DNA of 39,385 bases, from positions 1 through 39,385 of the forward strand of contig JAOAFA010000025.1 in the NCBI GenBank assembly GCA_026416535.1. Direction: 5' to 3'. Position numbers and translations under genes: made by a program. The DNA is from Deltaproteobacteria bacterium. GTDB taxonomy: Bacteria > Myxococcota > SpSt-1050. This document shows positions 7,785-22,384 of this stretch, one piece after another (within the stretch, counting starts at the first letter, position 1; each line of letters opens with the position of its first letter). The notes beneath the pieces are model-generated. The model was not told the DNA's origin and made no database searches. It saw only the letters and a list, made by a program, of their open reading frames with translations.

Positions 7785-9179
7785 ATGCCTGACATCCTGA
7801 TCGTTGAAGATGAAGAAAGTTTAAGGGAGGTCTTAAAGATAAATTTTAAAAGGCAGAATTACAGTTTAGATTGTGCGGAGAGCTTTAAACAGGCTAAAGA
7901 GTTTATCGATAAAAACAGTTATGATGTGGTGTTAACTGATTATAGACTTAAAGGTTCCTCTGGTTTTGATGTATTAAAGTATCAACAGGAAAAGATGCCA
8001 CTTGCACAGACGATTTTAATGACGGCGTATGCTACAGTTGAAAATGCAATTGAGGCACTTAAGTTAGGCGCATATCACTACTTAATCAAACCGTTAAAGA
8101 TGGAAGAGCTTAATGCTATTGTTGGTAAGGCTATTGAAACAGCGAGGATACTAAAAGAAAACTATCGATTGAAAGAGCAGTTAAGAAAACAATACGCTGT
8201 CGAGGGTATTATCGGTAAGTCACCCAAGATGGTCAAAATTTTCGACCTTGTAAAGAAGATAGCAGAGACAAAGACAACTATTCTGATAACAGGTCAGAGT
8301 GGAACAGGTAAGGAAGTAATTGCCAGAGCAATTCATGGTTTGTCTAGGAGGGAAGGTGAATTTATTGTAGTAAACTGTGGGGCGCTTCCAGAATCTCTTT
8401 TTGAGTCAGAATTATTCGGTCATGTAAAAGGTGCCTTCACCGATGCTAAATTTGACAAGAGGGGTCTTGTAGAGGAGGCAAACAAAGGGACACTGTTTCT
8501 TGATGAGATAACTGAGATCCCTCTGAACCTTCAGGTAAAACTTTTGGGTTTATTGCAAAGCTCGAGGGCAAGGCGGGTTGGTGATACTAGGGAATACGAA
8601 GTAGATATTAGGGTCATTGCAGCCACCAATAAAAATATTGAGAGCGAGGTTGAGAAGGGTCGCTTTAGAGAGGATCTTTATTACAGGGTAAATGTTATAA
8701 GAATTGAACTGCCACCTCTTAAGGAGAGAAAGGAAGATATACCCCTTTTAGTTGATAATTTTATAAGACTGTATTCTGCAGAACAGAATAAGGCAATACA
8801 GGGAATCAGTGAGGATGCCCTTAAACTTATTATGAATTATGACTTTCCTGGTAATGTGAGACAATTGGAGAATATCATAGAGCGTGCTGTAACTCTGACA
8901 AAGGATGGCAAGATTGGTATGGATGTGCTCCCCGATTTTATTAGAAATACCAGTTGTGAACCTGTAAGTAGTATCTACCAATATGGGGGAATAGATCTTG
9001 ATGCAAAGCTCATGGAAATTGAAAAGGAGGCAATACTTTCGGCCCTAAAAGAGGCAAATGGGAAAAAAACTCAAGCAGCAAGGTTGTTGGGACTTTCTTT
9101 TAGGTCTTTTAGATATAGATGCCAAAAGTATGGCATAGCAGCCGATGAAGAAGAGGCAGAAGAAAATAAAGAACAGTAA
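7785..9179 (+). CDS. pilR: PilR-like sigma-54-dependent response regulator
   Basis: NtrC-family activator, 464 residues. The receiver domain (1-120) has its phosphoacceptor at about D52 in LTDYRLKG and a conserved lysine in LIKPLK. The AAA+ domain (about 140-370) has Walker A GQSGTGKE at about 170-177, the sigma-54 contact loop reading GAFTDA at about 216-221 instead of the canonical GAFTGA, and Walker B GTLFLDEI. A Fis-type helix-turn-helix at the C terminus (TQAARLLGLSFRSFRYR) closely matches PilR. The GAFTDA variant is known in other members and is probably functional. Its TAA stop shares the A of the pilD start codon. The expected target is a sigma-54 pilin promoter, which lies outside this window. 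Confidence 0.92.
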   Translation: MPDILIVEDEESLREVLKINFKRQNYSLDCAESFKQAKEFIDKNSYDVVLTDYRLKGSSGFDVLKYQQEKMPLAQTILMTAYATVENAIEALKLGAYHYLIKPLKMEELNAIVGKAIETARILKENYRLKEQLRKQYAVEGIIGKSPKMVKIFDLVKKIAETKTTILITGQSGTGKEVIARAIHGLSRREGEFIVVNCGALPESLFESELFGHVKGAFTDAKFDKRGLVEEANKGTLFLDEITEIPLNLQVKLLGLLQSSRARRVGDTREYEVDIRVIAATNKNIESEVEKGRFREDLYYRVNVIRIELPPLKERKEDIPLLVDNFIRLYSAEQNKAIQGISEDALKLIMNYDFPGNVRQLENIIERAVTLTKDGKIGMDVLPDFIRNTSCEPVSSIYQYGGIDLDAKLMEIEKEAILSALKEANGKKTQAARLLGLSFRSFRYRCQKYGIAADEEEAEENKEQ

Positions 9180-10069
9180 TGTACGATTTAATAGTTTCAA
9201 ATTCGAATTTTTTGATGATAGCCAAGATATTTGCATTCGTTGTAGGAACGTTTATCGGTTCTTTCCTCAATGTGTGTATCTGTAGGATTCCATATAGGAA
9301 ATCTATTTTATACCCTCCTTCGAGATGTTTTTTATGTCTTACTCCAATAAAATGGTATCACAATATACCTATTGTGAGCTACTTTATACTTGGTGGCAGA
9401 TGCAACTCTTGTCATCAGAGTTTTTCAATAAGATACGTAGTAATAGAATTGATGATGGGTCTAATTTCATTGTCTCTATTTATTAACACATCAGATTTCT
9501 ATAGCTATTTTGTCTTGATTTATTTTATGGGCGCTGCAATAGTGTTGAGTTTTATAGATATTGATCATTGGCTTTTGCCAGATAGGATAACAATACCTTC
9601 TATATTTATGGGTATATTATTTTCTATCTTCATTTTTTCATTACCTTCTGGCAGTTACATTGATTTTAAGTCTTCCATAGCAGGTGCCTTTATAGGGTTT
9701 TCAGTATTGTTTTTTCTGGGTTTTGTTGCATCAAAGATACTGAATAAAGAGGCGTTGGGAGGCGGTGATATTAAGTTCATGGCGATGATCGGGGCATTTC
9801 TTGGATGGAAATCATTTGTCCCTATTCTGCTAATGGCAGCACTCCAGGGGACCGTGTTTGGTATATTCCAATTGATTTATTACAAACTCGGAAATAGGGT
9901 TGTCTTATTAAACAATAATGGTATTTATTCTGTATTCAAAGATAGGTCAGATGCCTTTAATCCTACTCCACATCATATTCCTTTTGGACCCTTTTTGGGT
10001 CTAGCAGCTTACGAATACATTATATTTGGCAATAAGCTGATTAATGTCATATTTGGATTGAACTTTTAA
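9179..10069 (+). CDS. pilD: Prepilin peptidase / N-methyltransferase PilD
   Basis: Bifunctional A24 aspartyl protease that cuts type IV prepilin leaders and methylates the new N terminus. The 296-residue protein has the cytoplasmic tetracysteine loop (CFLC and CNSC, about residues 46-76) and about seven to eight membrane segments. The two catalytic aspartates lie in FIDIDHWLLPDRI (about 120-133) and GGGDIKFMAMIG (about 195-205). The ATG overlaps the pilR stop by one base, indicating translational coupling. It is the last gene of the pilus operon and converges on comF, 22 bases away. A second, shorter A24 peptidase is encoded at 14594-15058. Confidence 0.95.
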   Translation: MYDLIVSNSNFLMIAKIFAFVVGTFIGSFLNVCICRIPYRKSILYPPSRCFLCLTPIKWYHNIPIVSYFILGGRCNSCHQSFSIRYVVIELMMGLISLSLFINTSDFYSYFVLIYFMGAAIVLSFIDIDHWLLPDRITIPSIFMGILFSIFIFSLPSGSYIDFKSSIAGAFIGFSVLFFLGFVASKILNKEALGGGDIKFMAMIGAFLGWKSFVPILLMAALQGTVFGIFQLIYYKLGNRVVLLNNNGIYSVFKDRSDAFNPTPHHIPFGPFLGLAAYEYIIFGNKLINVIFGLNF

Positions 10070-10091: not shown

Positions 10092-10880
10092 TCATTCTCC
10101 TCTTGCTAAAACAAACAGATCAACAGACCTTGCCCCTTTGTCTTTTAGAAGCTCTGCACATAGTGAGGCCGTAGTACCAGTGGTAAAAACATCATCTACG
10201 AGCAGTATCTTCTTATCTTCGAGTTCTTTTCTATAATTATCTTGTATTGCAAAAGAGCCTCTTATGTTTCTGAGACGTTCTTCCCTCTTTAAGCCGACTT
10301 GTGCCCTTGTATATTTGACTTTCTTTAATATATTGTATCTCACAGGGATTGAAAGAATATTTGAGATTAGATCTGCTATGTAGGCTGTAGGTGAAAACCC
10401 TCGCATAAAGATCTTTAGGAAATGTATTGGAACGGGGACTATAAAATCCAACTTTAGCTCTAAAATCTCTTTGTATAAGAGGTTTATAGATTCCAAGGTT
10501 AGCCTTCGACCAGCGAATAAGTTGTGGTCATATTTGAATGCCGCAATTGAATCACTTATTGCTCCTCCATATATAAAACGGTAAATGGTTCTGTCAAAAG
10601 GTTTGGGATTTTTTACGCAGTCGCCGCACTTTGATTCACCTGTCTTTCCATAATGCCTTGTCCCACACATTGGGCAAAAATTCTCTCCTCTCTCCTCAAC
10701 AGTATCTCCACAAATTTCACAGAAAATGCCTAGTTTGAGTTTGGAATGCTCCATAATATATTTTTTGCAACTCACACATCTAAGTGGATAGATAAATTCA
10801 AGTAGATCTCCTGCTAAGTCTAGCAGTTTAAAATATTTTTTATTAAGATTTGCAATTTTGCCCTTTGAACTATCATTCAT
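10092..10880 (-). CDS. comF: ComF-family phosphoribosyltransferase-like protein
   Basis: ComF/GntX family: an N-terminal zinc-ribbon-like half followed by a type I phosphoribosyltransferase fold. Four CxxC pairs in the first 90 residues (CVSC, CEIC, CPMC, CGDC) look metal binding. Then come FKYDHN, the VPVPIHFLKIFMRGF segment, and the PRPP-binding loop ILLVDDVFTTGTT near the C terminus. ComF proteins are tied to natural transformation and DNA processing in several bacteria, though the biochemistry is unsettled. I choose ATG 10880 (262 residues) over an upstream TTG at 10904; an AAGG lies 9 bases before the ATG. It is the last gene of the cpaA-type operon, which fits a role with pili in DNA uptake. 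Confidence 0.88.
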   Translation of the reverse strand: MNDSSKGKIANLNKKYFKLLDLAGDLLEFIYPLRCVSCKKYIMEHSKLKLGIFCEICGDTVEERGENFCPMCGTRHYGKTGESKCGDCVKNPKPFDRTIYRFIYGGAISDSIAAFKYDHNLFAGRRLTLESINLLYKEILELKLDFIVPVPIHFLKIFMRGFSPTAYIADLISNILSIPVRYNILKKVKYTRAQVGLKREERLRNIRGSFAIQDNYRKELEDKKILLVDDVFTTGTTASLCAELLKDKGARSVDLFVLARGE

Positions 10881-10928
10881 AGTAAAATGCCTTGATGCCT
10901 GCAAGCATGGTGTTATAAAAACCAGTAA

Positions 10929-12392
10929 TTACTTTTTTATTATATATACAACTCCTACGATCATCCCGATAATGCAAGCCGCTACTAAAAGTGGATGTAA
11001 TTTAACACCTTCTCCTTCTAAAAGGATGTTGAAGATTTCAGCTACAATTAGAGTTATTATCTCAAATACTAGAACGAATGATGTCACAATGACAATAGAT
11101 TGCAGTGTATTTGGTGGCTCTTCCATTGAGACCTTGGGAGGATTTTTTACATAGTCGTTAATAGTCTCTGATTTTATAGCCTCGCCCTGATCATCTATAG
11201 TCTCACCTGATTTGACTACTGTATCGTTTATGTTGCTATTATAATTATAAACATCTGAATTCCTATCGAATCTAATCCCTGATATAGAATTTTGATAAAT
11301 CTGGCAATTCTCAATGGTCGTGCAACTAGCATCGGAGACTATTATCCCATATCCTATATTATGGTGAATACTACTGTTTTTCATATTTGAGCAAGAGTTG
11401 TAACTTATGATTACTCCACTTCTCTTATTATAAGATATCTCGCTACTATCAGAAAAGAGGTTAGCATCATTTATAAGTCTTATACCGGTATTCTCTCCAT
11501 CAACTACGTAGCTATGGATTAAAAATAGAGTTGCCCAATCTCTTACGATAATGGATGAATCTAAGCATGTGCTTACTATTGAATTTTCAAGCACGCACTT
11601 TGAATCATCTGAGATGACTAAACCAGATTTTAAGCATCTATTTATAACTGAATTTTCTATTCGCAGATCAGATTTCTTGCCATATACGAAAATACCAGAT
11701 AGTGTTGCACCAATTATCTTACAATTTTTAATGACTACTTTTGAGTTTACAACCTCAATTATATTGCATCTGTCGTATTCAGTTCTGCTCATACCTTCTA
11801 ATGTGAGATTTTCCAAAACGACCCCTTCTGTATCTACAATAGTAAAAACTGGTGATGTATCGCATTGCATGATTACCTTATCATTTGCTACTCCGTATAT
11901 TCTTACTGGTTTTTTTATTCTGAAATGTCCATAATGTACTCCTGGGAGGAGTTCAATCTCTCCTTGGGGTTCAACATCTCTTATTGCGTTGTAAATTGAA
12001 TCGTAAAATTCACCTTCTAAGGACCTGCCTACAGTAATCTTCTTTGAAGGGAATACAAGGTTAATATCTCCTATTGATTTAGGATTTAAAATTCCAAGTG
12101 CATATGCCCATGTATTTATGATCCAACGCGCCGTCTCCTCAGGGATGTTCATCCTGACTATGAGCCTTGATATTATTATCCTATTAATTATCTCAATTTC
12201 GTATTTGTGTCTCAGATTTAATAACTCTTCCACCACTCCATATTCTAACGCCTTATTCAAGAGAAGAAATTCCTTTCTAATAGCTCCATATTTTTTTGAT
12301 AGTAACTCTATACATCTATCAACTTTTGTTACCTCTGCAATCCCATTCTCATCTACTATCTCTTTTAGTAGATTTTTAATTGAGGAGTTCAT
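10929..12392 (-). CDS. Membrane-anchored right-handed beta-helix protein
   Basis: The 487-residue protein has three parts. Residues 1-100 form an alpha-helical module ending ETARWIINTWAYALGI, which resembles an N-terminal module I recall from multidomain proteins ending AARWAVxxWAxALG; its role is unclear. Residues about 130-410 are a right-handed parallel beta-helix of NosD/pectate-lyase type. Rungs of 22-24 residues with ENS, NxxSGI and VxNCxI turns open with LPGVHYGHFRIKKPVRIYG. Two hydrophobic helices lie at about 430-452 and 466-485, with no N-terminal signal peptide, so the helix probably faces the cytoplasm. Its ATG overlaps the stop of the upstream Cys-repeat lipoprotein gene by one base. 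No catalytic residues are recognisable. Scaffold, ligand binding or carbohydrate recognition are all possible. Confidence 0.8.
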   Translation of the reverse strand: MNSSIKNLLKEIVDENGIAEVTKVDRCIELLSKKYGAIRKEFLLLNKALEYGVVEELLNLRHKYEIEIINRIIISRLIVRMNIPEETARWIINTWAYALGILNPKSIGDINLVFPSKKITVGRSLEGEFYDSIYNAIRDVEPQGEIELLPGVHYGHFRIKKPVRIYGVANDKVIMQCDTSPVFTIVDTEGVVLENLTLEGMSRTEYDRCNIIEVVNSKVVIKNCKIIGATLSGIFVYGKKSDLRIENSVINRCLKSGLVISDDSKCVLENSIVSTCLDSSIIVRDWATLFLIHSYVVDGENTGIRLINDANLFSDSSEISYNKRSGVIISYNSCSNMKNSSIHHNIGYGIIVSDASCTTIENCQIYQNSISGIRFDRNSDVYNYNSNINDTVVKSGETIDDQGEAIKSETINDYVKNPPKVSMEEPPNTLQSIVIVTSFVLVFEIITLIVAEIFNILLEGEGVKLHPLLVAACIIGMIVGVVYIIKK

Positions 12393-14581
12393 TATTTGCC
12401 TACTGGAACACAGATGTAATTTTGATTTATCTCCGAACAGATGTTGGTCGGTGGAGAGCAGTCTAAAGGGTTATTTATATCGCATGGCTTTGTGCAAAAC
12501 GACCTCTCTCCGTCATTATAACAGAATAGATTGTATGCACAATCTAACCAGCCTGATGGACAAGGGTCGCCCAGACCACCCCGTTTTTTATCGGGCCTGC
12601 ACCCCATAAAGTATATCTCACTCCCATTAGAAAGGCGTGAGTGAGCCACATCACACTTCATATTATGGTCGCAATCTAAATCTGAGAGACAATACTTTGT
12701 GCATATTGCGTCATCGCTACATAGATCACTCGCACACTTTGGTTCAAGTGTCTGCGGATTGCAGGTCGAACCGAAGGGTTGACCATTTGGTAATGGCAAC
12801 ATACAAGCGTTCTTCTCATATATTCCATCGAACGAGATAAATCTACGGCAGATCTCAGGAGCAGTACAGTCCTTATCAGTTACGCAGCTCTTTAGAGAAC
12901 CATATCTTAACCTACAGGTAAGAGTAAATCTAAGAGATGAATCTGGCATCTTGAGAGGTGAGTAATCACATCGATAAACATTGGACCCACAGTCTGATGT
13001 AGATTTACAGAATTTATCACAATAATTGTAATAAGTGCACATGTTATTTTTACACCAAGGATTTCCTGTAATAAATGAACAATTCTCAAGAGGATAATTA
13101 CCCTCCATCCCCTCTCTACAAGATATCCTATATAGTTTGTTCTCATCTATGGATAGAGAGCATACTTCTGTATTTTTGCAGTCTGAGTCATATATACATT
13201 CTCTTACTTGCATTATTGGGAGACAAAGCATTTTTCCGGTCAAATATAAATCGTCCTTTCTGCACTCATAACCGTCTATGCAATCTTCTGAAGATAGACA
13301 CTCCTTAGTGCAGATAGGTGATGGCTTGTTGGGGTCATCGTTTAGGCAGAAGAGTCCTTCTCTACAACTGAGATTTTCGTTACATAGATCACCGATTCTT
13401 CCATAGGTGTAATATCGTGCTATGCAACCCTTTAAGGAAACTTTGTTTCCGTTTATGTCAAACTTTAAGCCTTCACATATGTAACCTCTTGGGCAATCCT
13501 GATCTCTCTCACAAGGTTTACTGCACACTTTATTCTCTGGGCATAGGTTTGTTTTACAGTCTCCGTGTTGCTCGCATGAGTATCCCAGGTCCACTCCATC
13601 AGCAAATGACTGACTGCAATAAGAACCTGCACTATCTTGAGAATCGGCGATGAATATACAGGATTCACGCTTATTGTAATCACAGTCAGCGTCCTTTTTA
13701 CATGACACGCCTGTGTATACAGCCTTTTTCTTCTTGCAGACCCTCATCCCCTGACTATATATGGCACACGTATAATTGTATGGACAGATGGAGCTATCCT
13801 GAGTGCATTCGACTGAGCAATAATAATTGCCATCATCATAAATACAAATCCCATTTTCACAGATTAACTCTTCCAATACATCACCATTACTAAATCCAGC
13901 ATCTGGCAGGCAGGATTTACCTATTTCTCCCATTCCTTTCCTTTTACATTCGTTTGTGTTTTTATTGCAGTAGAATCCTTGAGGACAGTCTAAATCTGAG
14001 TAACAAGGTGGATACCTACATCCCTCAGGATTTTTACACAATCCGTTTACACATATAGCACAACCACCGCAATCTTTGTTGTCTGAACACATTGAACCGG
14101 TGCATCCTTCTATTGGTACACATAACCCGCTTATGCAATTCATGCAGTAAGGACAGTCGGCTATTGTTGAGCACATAAATAGTGAATAGGGACATCCATA
14201 TTCTTCTGAACATCTATTTGATATACAATGACCACAAACCCCACACTCTTTATCTGATTCACATCTATTTTTGTCTCCAACAAACACACACATTGGAGGA
14301 CTACCTAAACAACTGTAGTTATTTGGACAATCTGTATCTTTTGAGCAGTTATAGGTACAATACCCATAATCTTTGTCTGGACCTTTTACGCATATTCCTG
14401 ACAGACACGAATTATTCTCGGTACAAACATTCCCAACAACTTGTACGCACTGCCCATTGTAAAGGCAATTCCCGGGCATACAAATGGATTTTTCGCAGAA
14501 GAACTCATTCTCACAAGAGTGACAGGAGATGAGTATATAAAAAACACATGAAAAGGCAGATGTAATGAGTAGGTACCTCAT
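12392..14581 (-). CDS. Large cysteine-repeat surface lipoprotein
   Basis: The 729-residue protein starts with a lipoprotein-type signal (hydrophobic 3-19, lipobox LISC with Cys20). The rest is a run of cysteine-rich modules of about 40-50 residues with the pattern Cx4-7DC-x5-8-C-x4-10-C, for example SDLDCPQGFYC and SSEDCIDGYEC. A hand count gives about 97 cysteines (13%). The pattern resembles Dickkopf-type and EGF-like repeats seen in myxobacterial secreted proteins and implies many disulfides. An AGGAG 9 bases before the ATG overlaps the upstream peptidase stop. Flanked by a prepilin peptidase and a membrane beta-helix protein, it may be an adhesin or stalk, but no enzyme or binding domain is recognisable. 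Confidence 0.88.
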   Translation of the reverse strand: MRYLLITSAFSCVFYILISCHSCENEFFCEKSICMPGNCLYNGQCVQVVGNVCTENNSCLSGICVKGPDKDYGYCTYNCSKDTDCPNNYSCLGSPPMCVFVGDKNRCESDKECGVCGHCISNRCSEEYGCPYSLFMCSTIADCPYCMNCISGLCVPIEGCTGSMCSDNKDCGGCAICVNGLCKNPEGCRYPPCYSDLDCPQGFYCNKNTNECKRKGMGEIGKSCLPDAGFSNGDVLEELICENGICIYDDGNYYCSVECTQDSSICPYNYTCAIYSQGMRVCKKKKAVYTGVSCKKDADCDYNKRESCIFIADSQDSAGSYCSQSFADGVDLGYSCEQHGDCKTNLCPENKVCSKPCERDQDCPRGYICEGLKFDINGNKVSLKGCIARYYTYGRIGDLCNENLSCREGLFCLNDDPNKPSPICTKECLSSEDCIDGYECRKDDLYLTGKMLCLPIMQVRECIYDSDCKNTEVCSLSIDENKLYRISCREGMEGNYPLENCSFITGNPWCKNNMCTYYNYCDKFCKSTSDCGSNVYRCDYSPLKMPDSSLRFTLTCRLRYGSLKSCVTDKDCTAPEICRRFISFDGIYEKNACMLPLPNGQPFGSTCNPQTLEPKCASDLCSDDAICTKYCLSDLDCDHNMKCDVAHSRLSNGSEIYFMGCRPDKKRGGLGDPCPSGWLDCAYNLFCYNDGERSFCTKPCDINNPLDCSPPTNICSEINQNYICVPVGK

Positions 14582-14593
14582 TGATTGTTACTC

Positions 14594-15058
14594 CTAAGTT
14601 ATAAAATTATAGCCATATGTAATAAGGACTGCAAGAGTCATGGGGGGACCAAATGGGATAAAGATACTCTCCTGCATCTGAAATCTCTCTGCCTTTTTCA
14701 GTCTAAATCTTACGAGCAATGCGAGGGCGAAGATACCACCTATAATAGCTGAGATAATAACCCAATTTATAATTAATGGATAACCCATGATAGCGCCTAT
14801 AGCTGCAGCAAATTTAACATCACCCGCTCCAAAGCCACCAAAAAAGAAGATGATTAAATAGATTCCGAACGCTATGCAAAATCCCATTATACTTGCGATA
14901 AGACCGTCAACCCCTGAGTTTATCGACCAGATCAAAATGCCTAAAAGGATAGATGGATATGTCAATAGATTGTAGATTTTCCTCTCCCTAAAATCAGTGA
15001 TTGCTGCTATAGTTCCAATAACCATGAGGCAAGAGAATTTTGTGAATTCAAACATCAT
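14594..15058 (-). CDS. CpaA/TadV-type prepilin peptidase (A24, short form)
   Basis: Short A24 aspartyl protease lacking the N-terminal methyltransferase domain, like CpaA/TadV of tight-adherence pili. The two catalytic aspartates sit in AAITDFRERKIYN and GFGAGDVKFAAAIG, spaced as in the family. Five or so membrane segments follow. A TTG at 15094 also opens the frame, giving 166 residues. I prefer the ATG at 15058 (154 residues), since the TTG is part of a good -35 hexamer and has no Shine-Dalgarno. First gene of a four-gene minus-strand operon with the Cys-repeat lipoprotein, beta-helix protein and comF. No Tad ATPase or pilin lies nearby, so its substrate is unknown. Confidence 0.88.
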   Translation of the reverse strand: MMFEFTKFSCLMVIGTIAAITDFRERKIYNLLTYPSILLGILIWSINSGVDGLIASIMGFCIAFGIYLIIFFFGGFGAGDVKFAAAIGAIMGYPLIINWVIISAIIGGIFALALLVRFRLKKAERFQMQESIFIPFGPPMTLAVLITYGYNFIT

Positions 15059-15065
15059 TATTATG

Positions 15066-15094
15066 ATAATATTAAAATTTGTCAGATCAGTCAA
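15066..15094 (-). promoter_or_regulatory. Candidate promoter giving a nearly leaderless cpaA-type mRNA
   Basis: On the minus strand TTGACT (15089-15094) is followed after 17 bases by TATTAT (15066-15071). The expected transcription start falls about one base from the ATG at 15058, so the message would have almost no leader. This agrees with the lack of a Shine-Dalgarno ahead of that ATG. Confidence 0.45.
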
Positions 15095-15252: not shown

Positions 15253-16992
15253 TTACTTATATCTCAAATATCTCCCGAGGTAATAAGCAAACCTTAGATC
15301 AACTCCTGACAGAACTCTTGTTCCATCTCCACCTCCATTAGGTATATAGGGATTTGTACGCCAGTGAAAATTGGAGGGTGGTCTGACCCTCATTGGTATG
15401 GGTTCTTCTGTTATCAAATCTCCATTTCTGCCTTTGTATCCGATTACAGTTACCACTGTCCCATCGATAAGGACACAAGTACCTGATTTGATTTCTTCTT
15501 CATCACAGTTTTCAATTCTGTTGTCAAAGAATGGAGTGTCAGGAAATTCTATTAGGGTTTCTAAACCTCTCTCTATTGCATCCTTTTGATAGAATCCATT
15601 TGGTTTTGAATATATGCTTCCTCCTGTCTTTGAGTAGGCGTAGATGACATCAAAAAGTGTTTGCTTCATCTCTATGGGTTGTCTATCACTATTTGGAACA
15701 TTATATATCTGGAGTTCGATTGCTTTTGTAATCTCTTTTCTCACATCTTCTATGGGAATATATCGTATTGCCAAAAATGAGGATATCATAACCATGTTGT
15801 AGTTTGAAAAATTTGATACAAGACCCATATTAATAAATTTCATTTCTTCAGATGCTATCTTGTGGAGCCTCCTCTTGTTTACTAATACCTTTTGCAAGTA
15901 CTCATGTGCCTCTTTGTCTTCTGAGACATAGGCATAGGCGGCTACAATCCCTAATGCCATTGTGGCATAAAATCCATTGTTGAGTCCTGGGATATATGTC
16001 CCATCTACATTATTCTCATTTATATAGCCGTGTAGAGGAGTTCTTCCATCGGCGTCTAAAAATTCCAGGTCATACCCACTCTCCCTTTTTCTTCTGAGTA
16101 CCTCTCCTACGGATTTTGCATATCCTCTTAATTGTTCTTTGATCTCCTTTTCAAAGGATGGATCATCATTAATAACCTCTTTCACAATAGCCATAGCAAG
16201 TGCCCACCCGAGCATCATATCTCTTGAGATCGAGTCCTCCCAAACTAAGTGTGGATATCTACCACTCAGATCCTCTCGCCAAGTGCCATTATTTTTTTCA
16301 TATGGTAAGGGGATGCCATTGTTATCAAAGAGCGGGAGGGTCTCTATTCTCTTCCCAATACCAGGTACCATCCTATTTGCAAATCCACGTGCTACAACTC
16401 CATGTGTAGCTGGAATAGAAAATGCTATTAACAAAGCCTCAATAGACCTCTTTAATTGTTCTTTGGCGATCATGACCTCTTTACAGTCTGCCCCAGAATC
16501 TCTTAGAATTGCATATCTCATAGCATCGGCTGCTATGCCAGCCCCAGCGTATAACCCTGCGCTCTTATCCCAACCCTCTATTATATCGGTAACTTTAAGC
16601 CCATTCTCGAATTCATTTAGATCCCAACCCTCATATTCAAATAAAAATTTTTTTAATTTTTCCCGCTTATCGAAAGAGGAATTGGATATGGTTAGTTCCG
16701 TATTAGAGCCATGTGCAAAGGTAACAAATGTGTGGAAGAACCTATCATATCTCCTAACCTTGTCTGCTAATGATTTGTTGAAACCCTCTTCGAATTCAGA
16801 TGGTATAAGATGATGTCCATAAAATACATTGCTCCCACACTCTGGGAATTTAATGATTCCTCCAGCATCCGATGTGTCTCCATATGTATCATGTAGATTT
16901 TCCAAGGTGGGAGTATCCATGACCTCAAGTCCCCTCTCGCTACAAGAAAATAATAAGAGCAATAGATTAATGAGGAATAGTATCTTAATCAT
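15253..16992 (-). CDS. Large predicted lipoprotein of unknown function, helical-barrel-like
   Basis: From the ATG at 16992 the protein has 579 residues and begins with a clear lipoprotein signal (lipobox LFSC, Cys17). A GGAGGTG lies 6 bases upstream. The frame extends to a TTG at 17007, but that codon overlaps this ribosome site. The mature part is helix-rich, with recurring segments such as GLYAGAGIAADAMRYAIL, WEDSISRDMMLGWALAMAIV, NGFYATMALGIVAAYAYV and VDLRFAYYLGRYLRY. This pattern resembles an alpha/alpha-toroid of glycan-active enzymes, but I see no defining active-site motif. I do not recognise the family. It is alone between the cpaA-type operon and the divergent deoxyhypusine-synthase-like gene. 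Confidence 0.82.
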   Translation of the reverse strand: MIKILFLINLLLLLFSCSERGLEVMDTPTLENLHDTYGDTSDAGGIIKFPECGSNVFYGHHLIPSEFEEGFNKSLADKVRRYDRFFHTFVTFAHGSNTELTISNSSFDKREKLKKFLFEYEGWDLNEFENGLKVTDIIEGWDKSAGLYAGAGIAADAMRYAILRDSGADCKEVMIAKEQLKRSIEALLIAFSIPATHGVVARGFANRMVPGIGKRIETLPLFDNNGIPLPYEKNNGTWREDLSGRYPHLVWEDSISRDMMLGWALAMAIVKEVINDDPSFEKEIKEQLRGYAKSVGEVLRRKRESGYDLEFLDADGRTPLHGYINENNVDGTYIPGLNNGFYATMALGIVAAYAYVSEDKEAHEYLQKVLVNKRRLHKIASEEMKFINMGLVSNFSNYNMVMISSFLAIRYIPIEDVRKEITKAIELQIYNVPNSDRQPIEMKQTLFDVIYAYSKTGGSIYSKPNGFYQKDAIERGLETLIEFPDTPFFDNRIENCDEEEIKSGTCVLIDGTVVTVIGYKGRNGDLITEEPIPMRVRPPSNFHWRTNPYIPNGGGDGTRVLSGVDLRFAYYLGRYLRYK

Positions 16993-17149
16993 GGATTTCA
17001 CCTCCAAACTAAAAATAGCATTTTTATAAATTTATTCAAATCTAAAAACCTTGGAGACGAGATCCGTTGGAAGATTAGTAAAATAGTGTTCTGTGTCCGA
17101 TAAGGTTATAAAGTACTTGATAGATAAGCGGTTAGCGTCTATAAAATTC

Positions 17150-17212: not shown

Positions 17213-18184
17213 ATGAAGAGACAAATAATCTCAAAATTTATTGAGAAACATTTTTTGCATTTTAACGCAGCAACGCTTGTAGATGCTGCAAAGGCTTATA
17301 AAAAACATATAAATAGTGGTGGGAAGATGATGATTACTCTTGCTGGGGCGATGTCAACGGCTGAATTAGGTATATCGCTTGCTGAGATGATAAGGAAAGA
17401 CAAGGTTCACATCATCTCTTGTACAGGTGCTAATTTGGAAGAAGATATTATGAATCTCGTGGCCCACAAGCACTATAAAAGAGTTCCTAATTATAGATAT
17501 TTAACACCGGAGATGGAGAAGGAGCTTTTTAATCAGCACTACAATCGGGTAACAGACACTTGTATTCCAGAGGAGGAGGCGTTTAGAAGGTTGGAGAGGC
17601 ATCTACTTAAGGTATGGGAGAGGGCACAGAAAATGGGTCAGAGGTACTTCCCTCACGAGTTTGTATATCAAATTGTCAATAGTGGTGAATTAAAAAGGTA
17701 TTATCAAATTGACCCAAAGAATAGTTGGGTAGTGGCGGCGGCAGAGAAGAATCTACCAATGGTGGTCCCCGGTTGGGAGGATTCAACGACGGGTAATATA
17801 TTTGCGGCCTTGTGTATTAATAAGACGTTAGAGCCATCAATAGTTAAAAGTGGAATTGAATATATGATGTGGCTTGCCAATTGGTATAGAGCTAACTCGA
17901 AAGGTAAAGGAGTTGGATTTTTTCAAATAGGAGGTGGAATCGCCGGAGATTTTCCTATTTGTGTAGTTCCCATGCTTAATATGGATTTAAAACTCAATGT
18001 CCCTTTCTGGGCTTATTTCTGTCAGATAAGTGATTCAACAACTTCCTATGGTTCCTATAGTGGAGCAGTCCCCAATGAAAAAATTACCTGGGGCAAATTA
18101 GATGTGAAAACTCCAAAATTTATAATTGAGAGTGATGCAACCATAGTTGCGCCATTAATATTCGCTTATGTGTTGGGGTGGTAG
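17213..18184 (+). CDS. Deoxyhypusine-synthase-family protein
   Basis: The 323-residue protein belongs to the deoxyhypusine synthase family, whose members move a 4-aminobutyl group from spermidine in an NAD-dependent reaction. Seen here are the NAD-site motif CTGANLEEDIMN (about 75-86), GGGIAGDFP (about 240), and the catalytic-lysine motif ITWGK near the C terminus with Lys at about 295, followed by ESDATIVAPL. Bacteria lack eIF5A, the eukaryotic and archaeal target. Some bacterial homologues are thought to act in polyamine synthesis, such as homospermidine formation. No spermidine, agmatinase or homospermidine gene is adjacent, so substrate and product are open. It has its own strong promoter and is 165 bases from the malic enzyme gene. 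Confidence 0.9.
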   Translation: MKRQIISKFIEKHFLHFNAATLVDAAKAYKKHINSGGKMMITLAGAMSTAELGISLAEMIRKDKVHIISCTGANLEEDIMNLVAHKHYKRVPNYRYLTPEMEKELFNQHYNRVTDTCIPEEEAFRRLERHLLKVWERAQKMGQRYFPHEFVYQIVNSGELKRYYQIDPKNSWVVAAAEKNLPMVVPGWEDSTTGNIFAALCINKTLEPSIVKSGIEYMMWLANWYRANSKGKGVGFFQIGGGIAGDFPICVVPMLNMDLKLNVPFWAYFCQISDSTTSYGSYSGAVPNEKITWGKLDVKTPKFIIESDATIVAPLIFAYVLGW

Positions 18185-20240: not shown

Positions 20241-22331
20241 CTATTCTTCGAGGACCGCCCTTTCTTTGTAAGCAATGTTGTAAAAAAAGGTCTTATACAT
20301 CTCTATTGCCGTTGTATCGTAGAATATTGGAAAATGTCCCTGATCCTTAAACTGAACTAGAACCCCCGTAGATGAACCGCTTCCATCTTCTGTTTTTGCG
20401 TTGTTTGGTAGATCATCTTTGCTAACAAGATGAACACCATATCTCTCAAAAAATTCTTTACTTCGATAAATCTCTTTATAGGGATTTACCCCGATTGACA
20501 TTGCCAATACTTCAATTGCATCAGGTGGTGTAAAAGGATCGCTCGTTCCTTCTGTCATAAAGATGTGTTTTGGCAAACAAATGCCATCTTTGCATACTGG
20601 ATTTTTTATTAATAACCTTCCATAGTTTGCAGGATCTGCTGGATCTGCCATTATCTGTAAAAGGTTCAACACAGGGTGAAATAGATCTATGTCATGATCT
20701 TTTTCATCTAGAGCGAGTAGTATTCTTGCTATCTTTGGTATGTCAATAGGCTCGGTCTTTTGATAAACAGATATAATGAATCTGCCCCCGCCGGCGGAAA
20801 ATAGAGCTGCTTTTATGTCGGGTTCTACACCTACGAATAACGGTCCTGTAAGTCCACCCTGAGAATGTCCAAAGAAGTAAAATTTATTCTTATCGAATCT
20901 AATTTCCCTCCCATTACAACTTACACCAGGTTGAATAGTATTTCTCATAAGGATGTGCATTAGCACAATTGTATCAATGGCTGATTGTCTAAAATTATCC
21001 CTTGTAGCTAGCATGTTATTGATATTAAAGGTTTTCATCTCTACATTCCAATTCCCTGTATTTCTGCCCCCATGCAATGGTTGATCAAATGAGACGACCG
21101 CGATCCCTTTTAGTGCTAAGTTTTCTGCTATGTCTTCGTATATAAATGATTTGTAATTGCCGCCGGTTCCATGTGCGTACAAGACAACAGGAAAGCCATT
21201 CTGGGGCATTTCAGAATTAGGTATTGTTAAATAGAACCTGACATCCTCCCTTCTTTGAACGATGGGATTTCCTTCATTGTCAAACTCGAACATCCCGGAA
21301 TCAAGGCTATCATAAGGGGGAGCCCCTTTCTGAAATTGGTATGTTCTAAAAATTCCATTTATTCCACAATAAGATGACGTTGTTGTATCTTTTTTAATCT
21401 CCTTGAAGTTTAATTCTCCTTTTTCTACAACAAAGTCTCTCATTTTTTTAAGTTCTCCCACAGGATCCAATGTCGTGAAGATTGTCATAACGGCGATATC
21501 CTCTTTATTAATGTTAATGTCCTTAAGGTATTTATAGATAGGATAGTAGAGTCTTCTTGCCCTTTCAAGTCGCGCATCAGCAAATTCCATTGAGGACTTC
21601 GTAGATTCAAATTCTTTTGAACTCCCAAGAGGTCTTCCGTCACTTCCTTTAATTCTTCTTGTAATCACAAGGGCATATCTGTTTTTTGGCCTTAAAACGA
21701 ATCCATTTTCAGGTGTTATTATAAGGGTATTAGAACTAATATATTTATCTCCCCTTTCAACAAATCTGAGAAGAAGAGGGATTCGCTCTCCTTTATATTT
21801 ATTGTCTGTGACGTTAATAAGGAACAATGGTGAATCTTTCACAATAGTCTTTAATGGATCTTGAGGCAAAGATGTTGTGTCAATTTTATCATCAAATTTT
21901 ATGTAGATTGCACCTTGTGTTGAGAAGCCTGAGAAATTATTTTTTATTGTCTCTAAATAAATAGTTAGGAGGTCTATATTTGCAGGGTTCGGAAAACCAT
22001 CGATATTCAGTGTGCCGTCTGAATTAATTAGGAGATCAGATGGAAAAGGGAAAAAATAAAAATTTTGTGGTGTTTTATCTTCGGGAATTTTAAAGTAAGC
22101 CTTGACACCCGGTACCTCTGGGATATCAGTATCCGCTGAGATATCAGAAGATCCATCTTTATATTCAGATACATCATATGTCGAACCGTCTTTGTTATTA
22201 GGAAGATCTGAAACCTCCTCAGAACAATGGGTAATCGTTACAAAAATTATTATCACAAGTGGGGAAAAATATAAATTCTTGTAGATATACTCTTTTGCTT
22301 CCATTTTAGGATTATATGTAAATTTTAACAT
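20241..22331 (-). CDS. Surface-type alpha/beta hydrolase with lipase N-terminal-like domain
   Basis: From the ATG at 22331 (AAAGGA 8 bases upstream) it has 696 residues; a TTG at 22373 also opens the frame. A hydrophobic stretch ends in Cys at about 36 within TITHCSEE, then a D/S-rich linker typical of a lipid-anchored protein, though His before the Cys is atypical for a lipobox. The FPFPSDLL/DGTLNI/GFSTQGAIYIKFD segment at about 95-165 resembles the N-terminal domain of bacterial virulence-factor lipases (VolA type). The hydrolase domain has LYAHGTGG, nucleophile elbow GHSQGG (Ser near 487), the acid in GTSDPF (about 598) and the histidine in GHFP (about 665). Substrate is probably an ester or lipid. 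It is co-transcribed with nikR. Confidence 0.83.
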   Translation of the reverse strand: MLKFTYNPKMEAKEYIYKNLYFSPLVIIIFVTITHCSEEVSDLPNNKDGSTYDVSEYKDGSSDISADTDIPEVPGVKAYFKIPEDKTPQNFYFFPFPSDLLINSDGTLNIDGFPNPANIDLLTIYLETIKNNFSGFSTQGAIYIKFDDKIDTTSLPQDPLKTIVKDSPLFLINVTDNKYKGERIPLLLRFVERGDKYISSNTLIITPENGFVLRPKNRYALVITRRIKGSDGRPLGSSKEFESTKSSMEFADARLERARRLYYPIYKYLKDININKEDIAVMTIFTTLDPVGELKKMRDFVVEKGELNFKEIKKDTTTSSYCGINGIFRTYQFQKGAPPYDSLDSGMFEFDNEGNPIVQRREDVRFYLTIPNSEMPQNGFPVVLYAHGTGGNYKSFIYEDIAENLALKGIAVVSFDQPLHGGRNTGNWNVEMKTFNINNMLATRDNFRQSAIDTIVLMHILMRNTIQPGVSCNGREIRFDKNKFYFFGHSQGGLTGPLFVGVEPDIKAALFSAGGGRFIISVYQKTEPIDIPKIARILLALDEKDHDIDLFHPVLNLLQIMADPADPANYGRLLIKNPVCKDGICLPKHIFMTEGTSDPFTPPDAIEVLAMSIGVNPYKEIYRSKEFFERYGVHLVSKDDLPNNAKTEDGSGSSTGVLVQFKDQGHFPIFYDTTAIEMYKTFFYNIAYKERAVLEE

Positions 22332-22384
22332 TTTCGACTGTCCTTTCTCAAAAAAGGTATATAGATTTCCCAAAACAATGCATA

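Follow-up and report, generated by a model that had tools for sequence, protein, structure and literature searches.

Does a run of four genes that lies beside a type IV pilus operon form a unit of its own, and does it serve that pilus? The question is raised by the minus strand of a 39,385-nucleotide stretch of Deltaproteobacteria bacterium DNA (the window, contig JAOAFA010000025.1), where four consecutive open reading frames at 10092-15094 encode a short A24 prepilin peptidase, a Cys-repeat lipoprotein, a beta-helix protein and a ComF-like protein. These genes and their immediate surroundings are as follows.

14594-15055, minus strand: short prepilin peptidase of the CpaA/TadV/KilA type, 153 aa (PF01478 at 65 bits, no PF06750)
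12392-14581, minus strand: Cys-repeat lipoprotein, 729 aa, 97 Cys, lipobox LISC at residue 20 (no family above cut-off)
10929-12392, minus strand: beta-helix protein, 487 aa (PF13229, AlphaFold model, hydropathy)
10092-10880, minus strand: ComF/GntX-like protein (zinc-ribbon and phosphoribosyltransferase motifs)
12392-12392, minus strand: stop/start overlap TAATG of 1 base between the lipoprotein and beta-helix genes (identical in the congener)
9179-10069, plus strand: pilD (A24_N and A24, by Pfam), the end of the convergent pil operon; a neighbour, outside the block

A first, sequence-only reading of this DNA had reported four minus-strand genes separated by 12 bases, a 1-base overlap and 48 bases, and we recovered the same positions and spacings in that order, with the last counted from the comF ATG at 10880. 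Alignment with the congener places the peptidase start at ATG 15055 and the comF start at ATG 10880, and the TTG starts given by the ORF finder (15094 and 10904, respectively) are probably wrong. The four genes are predicted to be co-transcribed. Note that scans for promoters and terminators returned matches no more frequent than in shuffled sequence, and that the gap of 48-96 bases upstream of comF could leave room for a promoter.

The source genome (G000) was compared with the sole other genome of the genus examined (G001, the congener) and with a genome of the same order (G002). The congener carries all four genes in identical order and orientation, with identities of 81, 74, 60 and 55% for the peptidase, the lipoprotein, the beta-helix protein and the ComF-like protein, respectively, and the 1-base overlap between the lipoprotein and beta-helix genes is retained exactly. 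The flanks of the block differ on both sides, with synteny breakpoints at both ends, and the genes beyond the side away from the pil operon map to further contigs. Since the flanks differ and the inside is intact, the four genes form exactly one synteny block. Indeed, an order, an orientation and a 1-base overlap that are kept despite breakpoints on both sides exceed what chance would give. Several other multi-gene blocks are also kept between these two genomes, and therefore the synteny supports an operon and does not prove it. Conservation means here two genomes, and the block is absent outside the genus: in the genome of the same order, homologues of the peptidase, the lipoprotein and ComF lie on three different contigs, and the beta-helix protein occurs in 2 of 195 genomes of the phylum, none of them outside the genus. 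The gene combination that the sequence-only reading had considered undescribed is thus a real and conserved block, and its worry that the genes might be neighbours in no related genome is answered by the congener, where all four adjoin. The synteny across genera that it had proposed as a check does not hold, and the block is known from one genus alone.

Other genes of the window lie beyond the peptidase. A probable lipoprotein of 584 aa (15253-17007), with no match in Pfam or NCBIfam, is kept in the congener on a separate contig (C72). A deoxyhypusine-synthase family protein (17213-18184; PF01916, 142 bits) is encoded in this bacterium with scores below all NCBIfam equivalog cut-offs, and a 710-aa protein (20241-22373) weakly resembles VolA/Pla-1 phospholipases (TIGR03502, 97 bits against 384).

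The peptidase gives the clearest indication of a function. Its reading frame (14594-15094) carries the A24 domain PF01478 at 65 bits without the A24_N domain PF06750 that is present in PilD, the catalytic Asp pair lies in the motifs TDFRERKI and GFGAGDVK, and both residues (D34 and D92, the latter in GxGD) are invariant in an alignment of 10 homologues; a PDB search returned FlaK as the only match. The expectation that a short A24 peptidase would process pilins or pseudopilins is supported. In the tree, the protein stands apart from PilD, and its nearest relatives by path are the CpaA of the genome of the same order and peptidases from Kil/Tad clusters, with deep branches that are poorly resolved. 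Six relatives in four families have the homologous gene directly beside genes for a secretin, an FHA-fused ATPase and FHA proteins, a Tad-cluster location that is usual for short Tad peptidases and not strictly required. Their arrangement corresponds to that published for cluster I of the Kil system of Myxococcus xanthus (PMC8460266). In the genome of the same order, the short peptidase gene adjoins a Flp pilin gene. Two small lipoproteins are encoded nearby, and the source genome has their orthologues (51% and 45% identity) beside the TadE cluster.

This Tad context had been missed by the sequence-only reading, and the machinery itself is found elsewhere in the source genome as a split, Kil-like apparatus that is conserved in the congener. 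A secretin, an FHA-fused ATPase and an FHA-TPR protein are encoded together in C59 (L106:8118-13268), where the FHA-fused CpaF ATPase adjoins the secretin with its pilus N-terminal region (L106 10085-11785 and 11790-13268); CpaB, TadB, TadC and FHA proteins are encoded in C70 (L127:8256-12095), a TadE-like pilin cluster in C13 (L148:4631-9279), and a Flp pilin in C130 (L146:3360-3704). No peptidase gene lies beside any Tad or pilin cluster of the two congeneric genomes, in both of which the peptidase gene sits in the four-gene block, away from the Tad clusters, and it encodes the only short CpaA/TadV-type peptidase found in the genome. Because its homologues lie beside Tad genes, because the Tad clusters of this genus have no peptidase gene, and because the homologue in the same order adjoins Flp, we regard it as most likely a displaced Tad/Kil peptidase. 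By homology and by elimination, a link to Tad in this genus is most likely. However, the role remains uncertain because a third, divergent A24-like protein with the motifs VEDIIYKKVRN and SAGDAKF is encoded in C51 (L007, about 12074-13138, minus strand), and Tad pilins could be substrates of PilD as well. The C51 protein is fused to a further membrane domain, and its gene lies beside a radical-SAM gene.

The two proteins in the middle of the block are less easily placed. For the lipoprotein, the lipid anchor and the Cys repeats proposed earlier agree with the lipobox LISC and the 97 Cys residues. The homologue in the genome of the same order, at 42% identity, retains all 97 Cys and only 32% of the other residues, which points to a disulfide-rich exported domain. 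The AlphaFold model is poor (pLDDT 59), a PDB search gave no match, and an alignment search matched only in the congener and in the metagenome-assembled genome of the same order. Of 58 relatives, 12 have homologues, whose gene neighbourhoods vary (ExbB/ExbD genes, RtcB-like genes and others). As separate observations, a paralogue directly follows ExbB-ExbD-ExbD in both congeners (C87, L063:6255-8465 in the source genome and L064:6710-8824 in the other), a neighbourhood in which a Cys-repeat lipoprotein is coupled to a proton-driven energiser, and homologues in three genomes of family f5 (L066, L074 and L075) share another recurring neighbourhood with RtcB-like and conserved unknown genes.

The beta-helix protein comprises an N-terminal helical domain (residues 1-100), a right-handed beta-helix (about 116-394) and a C-terminal hairpin with membrane helices at 433-451 and 467-485 (AlphaFold model, mean pLDDT 72.8), and PF13229 together with the hairpin seen in hydropathy and model bears out the membrane-anchored beta-helix protein suggested before. 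No signal peptide was seen and Lys or Arg stands at the extreme C-terminus, so the beta-helix would most likely be cytoplasmic. Foldseek returned generic beta-helix folds (AlgG, AlgE4 and tailspikes) and no catalytic assignment, while the PDB search and a first scan of the contigs gave no match. Membership in NosD (TIGR04247) was rejected at 36.8 bits against a cut-off of 300. The N-terminal domain, which may resemble a widespread domain, has no match in Pfam, plasmids or relatives.

The sequence-only reading had tied the four genes to the adjoining pilus as a surface or competence module acting in DNA uptake, and the evidence for this lies in the pil operon next to the block within the window, in the presence of the four genes together in two species and in the ComFC protein of Helicobacter pylori, on which transformation and the handling of ssDNA depend (PMC9005727). 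The adjoining operon (pilB-pilB'-pilT-pilC-pilS-pilR-pilD) does include PilD as had been stated; it is not complete, since neither pilA nor pilMNOPQ lies within it. The congener has the same operon with its own pilD on a different contig from the block, so that the neighbourhood is seen in the source genome only, and we rejected a functional link of the block to this operon on that ground. The ComF-like protein has four CxxC zinc-ribbon motifs and the phosphoribosyltransferase motif LLVDDVFTTG, and Pfam reports a double zinc ribbon and a phosphoribosyltransferase domain; its score for ComF (TIGR00201) is 87.4 bits against the NCBIfam cut-off of 233.55. With the family domains present and the score under the cut-off, it is named ComF-like only; a PDB search gave no match. 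Moreover, each of the eight genomes checked has a single comF gene, which in the three relatives inspected lies beside gpmI (two genomes) or rsfS (the genome of the same order), a housekeeping context. The sole copy and this context suggest that relocation, rather than recruitment of a duplicate for competence, probably brought comF into the block. No other competence or DNA-uptake gene lies within the block, and the peptidase homologues belong to Tad clusters. We therefore rejected the competence module, and consider the surface/competence reading as a whole quite improbable.

Equally doubtful, in our view, is a peptidase that serves a pathway other than Tad and acts either on pilins or pseudopilins of the neighbouring type IV pilus or on those of another T2SS-like system. 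Prepilin peptidases are promiscuous (PMC8460266), and the genome encodes several further PilB-type ATPases (nine T2SSE matches, eight of them over the cut-off). However, a short A24 protein without A24_N matches the Tad types and has its homologues in Tad clusters, and the genome also has PilD, which falls apart from it in the tree, poorly resolved as that tree is. Somewhat more weight, while still on the unlikely side, is due to chance and drift, by which four unrelated single-copy genes would have come to adjoin one another before the genus diversified, in its ancestor, and would share transcription only. Their ancestral contexts do differ (a Tad cluster for the peptidase, varied for the lipoprotein, none known for the beta-helix protein, gpmI or rsfS for ComF), the block is confined to one genus, and one more block among the several kept between the two genomes is not extraordinary. 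In contrast, drift does not readily account for breakpoints that fall exactly at both ends of an intact interior with an identical 1-base overlap, nor for an order still kept at identities as low as 55%, which indicate a long divergence.

Altogether, the preferred reading, to which we assign a probability of about 0.62, is a lineage-specific composite operon in which a displaced Tad/Kil prepilin peptidase is joined to two orphan envelope proteins and a housekeeping ComF. It builds on what can be read directly from the sequence, i.e., the gene order and its conservation in the genus, the catalytic residues, a Tad apparatus without an adjoining peptidase gene and homologues beside Tad genes. The operon would have been assembled from genes of different origin. 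The most likely substrates of the peptidase are the Flp pilin (C130) and the TadE-like pseudopilins (C13); once their leaders are cleaved, these would be assembled by the Tad machine encoded in the C59 and C70 clusters. The disulfide-rich lipoprotein would be anchored to the envelope and most likely exposed to the periplasm or at the cell surface, as a partner in binding or in structure; the beta-helix protein, whose gene would be translationally coupled to that of the lipoprotein, may form a scaffold on the cytoplasmic face of the inner membrane, tethered by its C-terminal hairpin; and the ComF-like housekeeping gene was probably carried along. We also advance, as a speculative and rather doubtful extension, that a Kil-type Tad system might include two accessory parts not described before and co-expressed with the peptidase: the lipoprotein, acting as a receptor in the envelope or at the surface, and the beta-helix protein, providing a docking platform at the inner membrane. 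Nothing ties either protein directly to a pilus, and other members of the lipoprotein family lie in unrelated contexts. The probable displacement of a Tad prepilin peptidase into a new operon makes these two orphan envelope proteins candidate Tad accessory parts, and the split clusters extend a predation-type (Kil-like) Tad apparatus to a lineage known here from draft genomes only (the named relatives being metagenome-assembled genomes). The pil operon and ComF also call for caution, since function is not readable from one adjacency.

Compared with known systems, the peptidase resembles the short Tad peptidases CpaA, TadV and FppA, which likewise have about 150-180 aa, the A24 domain alone and two catalytic Asp residues, and differs from them in genomic context. 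The beta-helix protein shares its core with NosD and other right-handed beta-helix proteins (PF13229, with a weak NosD match), whereas the signal peptide is missing and the N-terminal helical domain and C-terminal membrane hairpin are its own. The ComF/GntX family shares the double zinc ribbon and the phosphoribosyltransferase domain with the block protein, which scores far under the NCBIfam cut-offs and has no adjoining competence genes. The closest likeness is to the Kil system of Myxococcus xanthus, in which cluster I holds KilA, KilC and KilF with FHA proteins (PMC8460266) and KilA is required for the minor pilins of Tips 2-4, i.e., three of the four tips (PMC12075869). Both have a short peptidase without A24_N (PMC8460266; PMC12075869), a secretin, an FHA-fused CpaF ATPase and FHA proteins together, TadB/TadC with CpaB in a second cluster, and scattered pilin clusters. 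The Kil system is a predation pilus and the likeness here is one of genes; in this genus the peptidase gene lies outside both clusters, in the company of a Cys-repeat lipoprotein, a beta-helix protein and ComF.
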